A DNA stretch of 54,394 nt, taken from contig JAFUDC010000032.1 in assembly GCA_017459345.1 (NCBI GenBank), positions 1-54,394 on the forward strand, written 5' to 3'. The notes below the pieces were generated by a model. The model ran no database searches. It saw nothing but the letters and a program-made list of their open reading frames with translations, and had not been told where the DNA came from. The DNA comes from Eubacterium sp. (GTDB lineage Bacteria > Bacillota > Clostridia > Lachnospirales > Lachnospiraceae). Positions 16,660-54,394 of the stretch are shown here, piece after piece. The position numbers and the translations under genes were made by a program. The number at the start of each line of letters is the position of its first letter. Position 1 is the first letter of the stretch.

Positions 16660-17439
16660 ATGACAGGAAAGATATTATTAGGTATTATCATTCCCTTTAT
16701 CGGCACCAGTCTTGGTGCCGCTATGGTATTCTTATTAAAGCAGCAGATCTCGGATAACCTCCAGAAGATTCTCACCGGGTTTGCAGCCGGAGTAATGGTG
16801 GCTGCCTCCTTCTGGAGTCTGCTGGAACCAGCTTTGGAGAGCAGCGAAGGAATGGGAAAACTGGCTTTTATCCCGGCAGCTGTCGGATTTATGGTTGGCA
16901 TTGGCTTCCTGCTTCTTTTAGATGAAGTAACGCCTCACATGCATATGGATCATCAGATGGAAGGACCCCAGAGCAAATTAAAAAAGACCACCAAGCTGAT
17001 ACTTGCGGTAACCCTGCATAATATTCCGGAAGGCTTAGCCGTGGGCGTTGTCTATGCCGGATGGAGATCAGGCCAGGCGGGTGTGAACCAGGCTGCAGCG
17101 CTTGCGCTTGCTCTTGGTATCGCCATCCAGAATTTCCCGGAAGGAGCCATCGTATCCATGCCTTTAAGAGCAGAGGGGATGCCCAAAGGAAAAACATTTA
17201 TCTACGGTGTCCTATCCGGTGCGGTAGAGCCGGTTGCATCCGTAATTACTATTCTTTTCGCCAGTCTGGTTGTACCTGTACTTCCCTATCTACTGGCCTT
17301 TGCCGCCGGTGCCATGATGTATGTGGTGGTAGAGGAATTGATTCCGGAGATGTCTGAGGGAGAGCATTCCAATAAGGGAACCATCGCTTTTTCACTTGGG
17401 TTTGTGGTGATGATGGTTCTTGATGTGGCATTAGGGTGA
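16660..17439 (+). CDS. ZIP family metal transporter
   Basis: A 259-residue membrane protein with eight predicted transmembrane segments, of the ZupT/GufA-like group of ZIP transporters that import divalent metals such as zinc. The metal-site motifs HNIPEGLAVG in helix 4 and QNFPEGAIVS in helix 5 are intact, and a His-rich cytoplasmic loop (HMHMDHQ) lies between helices 3 and 4. The start follows GAAAGGA. The next 1.4 kb has no intact gene; the stop codon is followed almost at once by the 17447-18598 element. Confidence 0.92.
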   Translation: MTGKILLGIIIPFIGTSLGAAMVFLLKQQISDNLQKILTGFAAGVMVAASFWSLLEPALESSEGMGKLAFIPAAVGFMVGIGFLLLLDEVTPHMHMDHQMEGPQSKLKKTTKLILAVTLHNIPEGLAVGVVYAGWRSGQAGVNQAAALALALGIAIQNFPEGAIVSMPLRAEGMPKGKTFIYGVLSGAVEPVASVITILFASLVVPVLPYLLAFAAGAMMYVVVEELIPEMSEGEHSNKGTIAFSLGFVVMMVLDVALG

Positions 17440-17451
17440 ATAATTATTTAA

Positions 17452-17627
17452 GTGAATAAGTCCAGCACCATGCGACAGGACAAGCTGTCATGCTAGCATG
17501 TAAAGCTGGCCTGGCATATGGTGCGACAAACAGTATCGAGATGAAGCACGATTAGTGCGAAATCGAGATACTGTGGCGGATTGAGGGAGCTGCTTTAGCA
17601 GCGAAGCAATCCGTGGGACTTATTCAC
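17452..17627. repeat. Cloverleaf of nested inverted repeats
   Basis: A 12-bp perfect outer stem (17452-17463 with 17616-17627) encloses three hairpins: GCACCAT/ATGGTGC (17465-17471, 17518-17524), ACAGTATC/GATACTGT (17530-17537, 17567-17574) and GGATTG/CAATCC (17578-17583, 17607-17612). Each of the three has a further short palindrome in its loop: GACAG/CTGTC, GCAC/GTGC and GCTGC/GCAGC. The geometry is like a tRNA-style four-way junction, but no tRNA motifs are present. Confidence 0.8.
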
Positions 17628-17689
17628 GCCATTAGCGAGCCAGAAACAGCCCGTGCTTGCACGGGCTGGGACGTATGCACTATCTTCCA

Positions 17690-17838
17690 AGGCTATTGAA
17701 CAGACTCCTCAACAGGCATATATATGGATAAATATCAATATCAGGAAATCTCAATCATGTTTTGCGGAAAAATCATGATTTGAGATAATTTTTTACGCAA
17801 ATAATGGGTAAATCAATATGGTTTGGTCTTTTCTACCC
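17690..17838 (+). repeat. Copy 1 of a 150-bp A+T-rich non-coding repeat
   Basis: This stretch aligns to 54245-54394 through shared blocks such as GGCATA.ATATA, AATATCAATAT, CATGTTTT.CGGAAA, TTTTTTACGCAAATAAT and the shared end CTTTTCTACCC. Identity is roughly three quarters by eye. It lies inside the 17447-18598 element. Confidence 0.75.
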
Positions 17839-18062
17839 ACGAGCTCCGGCACCTGTCCTGGAGTTATTTATAATTAAGGAAAAACCTGTGGGTAGAGAAT
17901 CTCTTCCCGGTATTTCAATACCCAATTTTGTGGAAAAAAACAGTAGTATGACGAAAAAGTTACTTCATATATGATTTTATCGATATATTAGAGTAGATTA
18001 TAGGTAAGCCGTTACCATATATATTTACTCAGTTCGCTTGTTCAGTAACCATCTGGCTATAA

Positions 18063-18215
18063 GAATTGGCGGATCTTGCGAATCAGGACGGTTTTAAAGT
18101 CAAAGGGCTGCGAACATTACATTCATATATTTGCGATTATATTAATGAAGATGGTGATTTTGAATTCAGAGTCATTTTATCAACAGGATTTGATAATATA
18201 CCTGAGGCTCATTGA
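18063..18215 (+). pseudogene. Coding remnant, module copy A
   Basis: A 50-codon open frame without a start codon, preceded directly by a stop and ending at TGA 18213-18215. It reads as ordinary soluble protein (LADLANQDGFKVKG, DYINEDGDFEFRVILSTGFDN). It resembles, at protein and partly DNA level, the module encoded on the other strand at 18241-18396. I do not recognise the family. Confidence 0.5.
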
Positions 18216-18240
18216 AACCATCGACAGATTTCACTGTAAA

Positions 18241-18403
18241 TCAGACAAAATGAGCAGATTCAGTCGAAAAAATTGGATAGTTATATGATTTCCCCGTATA
18301 ATTATCAAAATCTGTTGCTAAAAAGGGCCCAAAACTGACATCACCATCTTCATCAGTATATATGTCAATATGTAAATAGAATGGCGGGCTGTCACTTTAG
18401 CAT
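18241..18403 (-). pseudogene. Coding remnant, module copy B, frameshifted near its start
   Basis: On the minus strand a strong ribosome binding site AAAGGAGG (18416-18409) precedes an ATG at 18403, but that frame stops after three codons. Dropping one A from the following AAA would open a 50-codon frame (SDSPPFYLHIDIYTDEDGD, then FGPFLATDFDNYTGK) to a TGA at 18243-18241. The blocks D-x-DEDGD and LATDFDN parallel copy A (NEDGD, LSTGFDN). The two copies face each other with 25 bases between their stops. Confidence 0.5.
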
Positions 18404-18659
18404 GCGTTCCTCCTTTCGGCTGCTTTAATTGAACTGATATCAGCCCTTCGGGCTGACTCACTTTGGCTCATTCTTCAGTCTATGGCTGGCCAAAAGGGGC
18501 AATTGCATCCACTAATTTCTAAAGTACAATCGTTGCTGACTTTCCGGATAAATCTCATGCCTTGCTCAGCCGCTACGCACTGGACTTATTCACTTAAAAA
18601 GTTATACACATCAAACATTCAACAGAATAATTACTTCATATATGGTAGTTTTAGAACGT

Positions 18660-18706
18660 CCATAAATGGAAATGTGGTTGACAAACGGAAATCCATATAA
18701 TACTAT
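18660..18706 (+). promoter_or_regulatory. Promoter and candidate operator of the first HTH-Uma2 gene
   Basis: TTGACA (18678-18683) and TACTAT (18701-18706) with a 17-base spacer. Just upstream lies the near-palindrome CCATAAATGG (18660-18669), similar to the CCATATGG sites at the second HTH-Uma2 gene. Confidence 0.45.
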
Positions 18707-18823
18707 TAATATAGCTAATATCTAACATGAGCTAAAGGAGCTATAAGATGATATGTGAGAAATGACTCCTCATGTCAGGCTTTCCAACTTACGCACAATC
18801 TTTTATAAAGAGGTGGTTTCACG

Positions 18824-43088: not shown

Positions 43089-43092
43089 ATAA

Positions 43093-43190
43093 AAGATGCA
43101 GCGGGAGCTTGTAGTACAGGCTGAGAGGAAGGTGTGACCTTCGACCGGAAACCTGATTTGGATAATGCCAACGTAGGGATGTGATTTATG
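43093..43190 (+). ncRNA. TPP riboswitch (THI element)
   Basis: The conserved thiamin-pyrophosphate aptamer blocks are present in order: GGGAGC, GGCTGAGAGGAAGG, GTGACCTTCGACC, GGAAACCTGATTTGG, ATAATGCCAACGTAGGGA. It is followed 13 bases later by a terminator and then thiS. It should turn the thiSFGHE genes off when TPP is abundant. Confidence 0.95.
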
Positions 43191-43202
43191 ATACGTATGA
43201 TT

Positions 43203-54244: not shown

Positions 54245-54394
54245 GTTAACGGACCTGAGTCCTTAAAGGGCATAGATATATTGACTAATATCAATATAAA
54301 TGAATCTCAAACATGTTTTACGGAAATTATTATTATTTCAGACATTTTTTACGCAAATAATTGTTAGAATAAAAACTTTTGGCCTTTTCTACCC
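54245..54394 (+). repeat. Copy 2 of the 150-bp A+T-rich repeat, cut by the window edge
   Basis: It aligns to 17690-17838 block by block and reaches the shared CTTTTCTACCC exactly at the last base of the window, so the repeat may continue beyond. In copy 1 the sequence goes on into a TCTACCCA..TGGGTAGA pairing. Confidence 0.75.

Follow-up and report, generated by a model that had tools for sequence, protein, structure and literature searches.

A gene-free repeat mosaic in Eubacterium sp. whose left end matches Clostridiales-1 RNA (RF01699), a family that behaves like small mobile DNA with a folded end

The window, i.e., the whole stretch of DNA that was analysed (54,394 nt of Eubacterium sp.; assembly GCA_017459345.1, contig JAFUDC010000032.1, positions 1 to 54,394, forward strand), contains a gene-free mosaic of repeats just downstream of a ZIP transporter gene, whose stop codon ends 1 nt short of the repeat border. 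This mosaic, referred to below as the window copy, consists of the following features, each given with the evidence that defines it.

17437..17439, + strand: stop codon of the upstream ZIP transporter gene (16660-17439; Pfam Zip)
17441..17452, + strand: outer left border motif TAATTATTTAAG, present as TAACTATTTAAG in many copies (homology between own-genome copies begins approximately here)
17447..17465, + strand: left 19-bp terminal inverted repeat (inverted-repeat search, Markov control)
17452..17463, + strand: terminal stem, 5' strand (pairing search, folding)
17457..17622, + strand: Clostridiales-1 (RF01699) cloverleaf, module A (cmscan, 78.6 bits)
~17465..17524, + strand: hairpin 1 (folding)
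~17530..17574, + strand: hairpin 2 (folding)
~17576..17614, + strand: hairpin 3 (folding)
17616..17627, + strand: terminal stem, 3' strand, the "third copy of the end" (pairing search, folding)
17635..17696, + strand: module P, a short hairpin piece (CCCGTGCTTGCACGGG) that also adjoins other cloverleaf copies (own-genome comparison, module map)
17697..18046, + strand: module B, a dispersed repeat of ~300-350 bp (own-genome matches, module map)
18106..18381, + strand: module C, a long imperfect inverted repeat with arms at ~18121-18201 and ~18296-18378 (module map, peptide search)
18407..18474, - strand: module D remnant, approximately half of a 128-bp (2 x 64) tandem-repeat unit (array comparison, module map)
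18490..18498, + strand: deletion scar, where sister copies hold ~405 bp (module F) (module comparison)
18498..18566, + strand: module Z, right-end region (module map)
18559..18604, - strand: right border, consisting of the left tip of a second cloverleaf subtype in inverted orientation (copy comparison, module map)
18580..18598, - strand: right 19-bp terminal inverted repeat (inverted-repeat search, Markov control)

Elsewhere in the window, a TPP riboswitch (RF00059) was found at 43091-43196 (+) with 65.4 bits.

The exact 19-bp pair TTTAAGTGAATAAGTCCAG (17447-17465 / 18580-18598) is the sole 19-mer inverted pair within 17300-18799; in 200 first-order Markov copies of that interval, the longest pair had 18 bp. 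With mismatches allowed, the inverted ends extend to 17436-17484 / 18561-18609 at 76% identity, so the perfect 19 bp are a core and not a border. Comparison with other copies placed the borders of the repeat unit at ~17441 and ~18604, and outside the left border the flanks of own-genome copies are unrelated. A preliminary description of the locus had given the extent of the element as 17447..18598, which is correct for the inverted pair but not for the borders. Its account of the structure was otherwise borne out: besides the exact inverted ends, it had reported a third partial copy of the end that forms a 12-bp stem with the left end, three hairpins within that stem and the absence of an intact gene or transposase. 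Indeed, 17616-17627 pairs with 17452-17463 over 12 bp, and 17447-17634 folds into this terminal stem plus three hairpins at -88 kcal/mol (z -9.5), a stability matched by none of 200 shuffles. Just two ORFs of at least 60 aa overlap the window copy (70 and 72 aa), neither of which had a Pfam match above cut-off. As for the insertion site, the ZIP stop codon looks native, since the orthologues read from relatives also end in ALG-stop. A search of 24 genomes from the genus matched the ZIP gene in 19, own genome included; in the eight sequences read, one from the own genome, the gene order behind it is not conserved, so no clean empty site of the window copy was found. A contig search with the downstream Uma2 protein found no close relative, and by eye no target duplication is present at 17441/18604, where the flanks differ.

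A covariance-model search (cmscan) showed that 17457-17622 is a full-length match to Clostridiales-1 RNA (RF01699; model positions 1-166, 78.6 bits against a gathering cut-off of 48, E 9.7e-16). Since the 12-bp stem and its three hairpins match this model, the left part of the window copy belongs to a described family, and the remark in the preliminary description that it knew of no described class with this layout is wrong for the cloverleaf. Judged by this match, the left end of the gene-free mosaic is an already known, unexplained "RNA" family. Rfam classes RF01699 as an sRNA gene, and Weinberg et al. (2010; PMC2864571) enter it in their table as "y n n, Clostridiales, human gut", in which y stands for probably RNA. 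Our search for further papers titled on Clostridiales-1 RNA or RF01699, with most subscription journals outside its reach, found none.

The 1152-bp window copy gave 96 matches in its own genome, and these cover separate pieces of it. Ten module queries were mapped onto 44 loci and two window stretches, and two types of island were recognised. In type I, the cloverleaf is followed by tandem 128-bp units, each made of two 64-bp halves, and by a second 64-bp array, after which the order is mirrored in reverse; the clearest examples, L034 and L044, each have one damaged cloverleaf end. The second array (L034 1114-1417, L044 ~1252-1650) lies at the centre of these mirror-symmetric islands and differs in sequence from the 128-bp units, yet has the same 64-bp period. 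In type II, the order is cloverleaf, B, C, inverted D, F, Z, and inverted cloverleaf tip. Eight loci (the window, L017, L019, L020, L036, L040, L046, and L047) were assigned to it because two or more of the modules B, C, F, and Z follow one another there in this order; L041, with F alone of the four, was left out. Module F (~405 bp) sits between short direct repeats in the sister copies and is present in seven of the eight; the window copy alone is without it and has, most simply, lost ~405 bp between such repeats. The two ends of the window copy are two different end subtypes, and it is because these differ that the perfect stretch is just 19 bp. At several loci the cloverleaf adjoins anything from a partial unit to several 64/128-bp units, as in a BOX-type composite repeat. 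By DNA similarity search, the 128-bp array stretch matched one of 61 genomes, its own. Module B also occurs alone elsewhere in the own genome, and one more copy fills 54257-54394 (+) at the window's right edge, which is the contig end; many contigs of this genome terminate within these repeats. At L195 (~1575-1728) the usual left border motif is followed by a cloverleaf in inverted orientation, as would result from a flip of the core between its end repeats. The arms of module C can be translated into similar short peptides on opposite strands, and a peptide from the C arm of L020 matched mainly copies of these repeats in the own genome. Modules B, C, and F were also considered as remains of a transposase, for which the two ORFs of the window copy gave no Pfam support; no transposase gene lies inside the window copy or L020, where there are short ORFs only.

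It is possible, though in our view doubtful, that the whole mosaic (A-P-B-C-D-F-Z-A') is one non-autonomous transposon of 1.5-2 kb that moves en bloc. The shared module order of the eight type II loci would fit such an element, as would the matching 46-bp ends of L020 (44 identical). However, the modules also occur in many other combinations, e.g., cloverleaf plus tandem arrays or lone B copies, no target duplication was seen by eye at the window copy or at L020, the two that have both ends, and the composite was not found in the eight relatives searched, save for weak matches in one.

Of 61 genomes searched for the RF01699 cloverleaf (the own genome and 60 relatives), 32 had matches at E<=0.001 and 26 had matches above cut-off, with up to 35 copies per genome among the matches listed. 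A class-wide sample gave matches in 12 of 293 genomes, own included (10 above cut-off), nine of the 12 belonging to the same family, and no match was found in 14 control genomes. For 86 units, a mostly high-scoring part of the more than 150 matches listed, in which tandem copies were counted as one, the flanks were compared. Borders were abrupt, with near-identical units amid unrelated neighbours. The unit ends follow the patterns TGATRYYRGGGTCAAAAG and TAACTATTTAAGTGAATAAGTCC, a candidate outer end of any kind was present in 49 of the 86, and the outermost 7 bp differ among subfamilies. In one relative (G025), the full unit with its outer right end kept reads TGATACCAGGGTCAAAAG...cloverleaf...CTTTTTGACCCCAACATCA or a near variant, and many of these end-preserved copies are flanked by direct repeats. 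Second copies of the ends, whose absence the preliminary description would have taken as a sign of chance, do exist, since the end pattern occurs within one mismatch at 26 sites, compared to two for a reversed control pattern. Target duplications of at least 5 bp (5-6 bp) flank 14 of the 86 units, whereas 5000 flank shuffles gave 1.1 on average and never more than 6; the same test detected none in the other 72. All 14 start with T and end with A (e.g., TAATA, TTATA, TGAAA, TTTAA, TATAA, and TAGTA), and seven of the 12 five-base ones read TWWWA. At the gltD locus, where 10 of 17 loci were readable, the unit is present in G008, G020, and G022 and absent in seven genomes; it begins exactly at the stop codon, which lies at the same place in genomes without the unit. 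Thus, empty sites and target duplications, which the preliminary description had proposed as checks, were found for units in relatives but not for the window copy. Its suggestion of a non-autonomous transposon built from palindromes largely holds, given the dispersal, sharp borders, duplications in relatives, and nested modules, whereas movement of the 1.15 kb as one unit has no such support. By eye, several unit-free genomes have a terminator-like hairpin at the unit's gltD position (L212-L215, L217-L219), and tandem partial duplications of the unit's 3' part, some with a piece of 3' flank, were seen at L060-L064, L072, L073, L075, and L078.

To describe where units sit, neighbouring genes were defined as open frames of at least 80 codons, independently of curated annotation. 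The upstream gene was on the same strand in 65 of the 86 units, on the opposite strand in 16, and without assignment in five; for the downstream gene these numbers were 58, 22, and six. Among the 65 units with a same-strand upstream gene, 26 start within -3 to +4 nt of its stop codon, and in 16 the unit's own first triplet is that stop. In the 14 nt directly before the unit, 32 of 86 units have TATAAT with at most one mismatch, compared to 7/86 and 9/86 in control windows. Of the 24 end sites read in the own genome, 14 are preceded, 9-18 nt before TGAATAAG of the end, by a stop codon that closes a frame of 150 codons or more, and eight of these 14 stops are the TAA/TAG of the border motif itself. 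The units therefore prefer stop codons and the downstream edge of -10-like boxes. At five loci of G005 (L086, L088, L091, L094, and L097), apparent truncated units have, by eye, their first hairpin shortly upstream of a possible gene start and directly behind an AT-rich, TATA-like stretch.

The covariation that the preliminary description had proposed to check proved to be strong. In 45 units (of 50 left after redundancy removal), 291 of 315 cells of the terminal stem are paired, and a single position can show as many as five pair types; none of 1000 partner shuffles gave more than 200 paired cells. The unit borders in this test were set by the covariance model, which favours pairing. Between G020 and G022 at gltD, 50 pairs are unchanged, five changes are double-compensatory, three are one-sided with pairing kept, and two pairs are broken. 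A functional RNA tolerates G-U but not A-C, whereas a DNA palindrome treats both alike. Symmetric scoring of mismatch cells in 72 distinct single units (130-185 nt) gave 70 G-U vs. 73 A-C, with G-U in excess in 20 units, A-C in 23, and a tie in 29, and four redundancy cut-offs gave 56/66, 52/54, 30/33, and 20/20. In contrast, tRNAs from three relatives, scored alike (39 of 54 passed the pairing filter, with the offset chosen per tRNA), gave 36 G-U vs. 4 A-C (Fisher p about 1e-6). Since a covariance model should favour matches that contain G-U, its bias would oppose a DNA-level conclusion. Neutral decay of perfect palindromes would likewise make G-U equal to A-C; however, together with the compensatory changes, this equality points to maintenance at the DNA level. 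The palindromes therefore look maintained as DNA, not RNA, and of the arguments against the sRNA label the equality weighs most. It also tells against a large structured RNA as the reason for the structure, which the preliminary description had offered as its alternative. That Clostridiales-1 is nonetheless a real RNA, small or cis-acting, whose place on or next to repeats is coincidental, appears improbable: the model match, the strong covariation and gltD compensations, the same-strand bias with neighbour genes, and the -10-like boxes just upstream would all suit it, but it must also accommodate the lack of a G-U excess, near-identical copies amid unrelated flanks, target duplications, and an uneven presence in the class sample (12/293).

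No autonomous element with these ends was seen among the end sites of G000, G005, G025, and G031, where the spacing of the inverted-repeat pattern was judged by eye for part of the sites, including 20 stretches of G005. A G005 pair 1.42 kb apart, considered as such an element, turned out to be two separate small hairpins, and the ORFs between them were not recognised as transposase, on reading rather than a family search. Four patterns were searched against viral contigs: three had no match, and the two matches of the fourth were without the cloverleaf and were taken as chance. Plasmids gave no match; the phage records include 10 unannotated contigs from human faeces that match part of a G025 unit. 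The own genome does encode one Y1 transposase, and the structure is kept while the end sequence varies, as expected for structure recognition. Both facts would suit REPIN-like units, whose folded single-stranded ends are moved by a Y1/HUH (RAYT or IS200-type) enzyme and not by a DDE transposase. However, the units have 5-6-bp target duplications, which Y1 enzymes are not known to make, and the contig with the Y1 gene carries no RF01699 among the matches listed, so this explanation seems quite improbable. Accumulation of unrelated hairpins by chance is refuted by the Rfam E of 9.7e-16, the fold z of -9.5, and the 96 own-genome matches.

In our view, the window copy is probably (roughly 0.75) a degenerate composite, built from mobile non-coding repeats, whose left end is a unit of a MITE-like RF01699 family. 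At the level of the family, the elements are MITE-like, with BOX/bcr1-like composites, and behave like small mobile DNA with a folded end. Units may be moved in trans by a putative transposase that makes 5-bp staggered cuts in T-A-rich targets, which would be frequent at stop codons (TAA) and -10 boxes (TATAAT); such a preference would explain both hot spots. The built-in TGA/TAA of the unit end would keep the upstream gene closed. The palindromes could be kept as DNA by recognition of a folded single strand or by palindrome-correcting template switching. In the own genome, units also bracket tandem 64/128-bp and other repeats and form BOX-like composites; the islands probably grew by accretion, and the window copy is one such composite that joins two end subtypes and has, most simply, lost ~405 bp. 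Several observations weigh against this account: the window copy and L020 have both ends but no target duplication; the same-strand bias (65 vs. 16) is not predicted for a pure DNA parasite; the variable outermost 7 bp are unusual for sequence-recognised ends; equal G-U and A-C are also expected of neutrally decaying old palindromes; and there is no autonomous element among the sites read and no duplication of at least 5 bp at 72 of 86 units. A tentative and, in our estimation, unlikely extension is that the mobile ends are recognised by shape, with a four-way cloverleaf whose terminal stem drifts yet stays palindromic, a DDE-like enzyme, 5-bp duplications, and an aim at stop codons and -10 boxes. 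If so, what is listed as an RNA family would stand for a class of transposon ends that are recognised by structure.

Compared with known systems, the units share with Clostridiales-1 RNA the terminal stem with three hairpins, 17457-17622 being a full-length member, but behave as mobile DNA without a G-U signature where Rfam lists an sRNA gene. BOX elements of Streptococcus pneumoniae, as described by Croucher et al. (2011; PMC3049150), have end modules with tandem internal modules between them, the number of which varies, and are highly folded, often transcribed, and clustered and nested with other repeats; the likeness is one of description. Here, by comparison, the end module is a 165-nt cloverleaf, the tandem units are of 64/128 bp, islands can be mirror-symmetric, and single units in relatives have target duplications. 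In the Bacillus cereus group, bcr1 and other bcr repeats, as described in PMC3446304 and PMC6542083, are likewise short and MITE-like and reach tens of copies; they frequently lie in UTRs or operon gaps, and the secondary structure of some is conserved. Their mobility is tied to a TTTAT motif, whereas the duplications here vary (TAATA, TTATA, TGAAA, TATAA) and the host group differs. With prokaryotic MITEs, as outlined in the review PMC10969869, the units have in common terminal inverted repeats, AT-rich targets, direct repeats, stable stem-loops, and the absence of a transposase, but they have no parent insertion sequence among the sites read and their end sequence varies with compensation. 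Terminal inverted repeats were found, as were duplications for units in relatives; the family is structurally a MITE, although the window copy itself is without a target duplication.

With these results, an Rfam "sRNA" family without assigned function, listed since 2010, gains a testable explanation as mobile DNA of Clostridiales. The G-U vs. A-C count with its tRNA control could also sort RNA structure from DNA palindromes in other orphan Rfam families. Finally, the targeting of stop codons and -10 boxes shows a way in which such elements could spread while leaving genes intact, and they could supply many mRNAs with a folded leader or tail.
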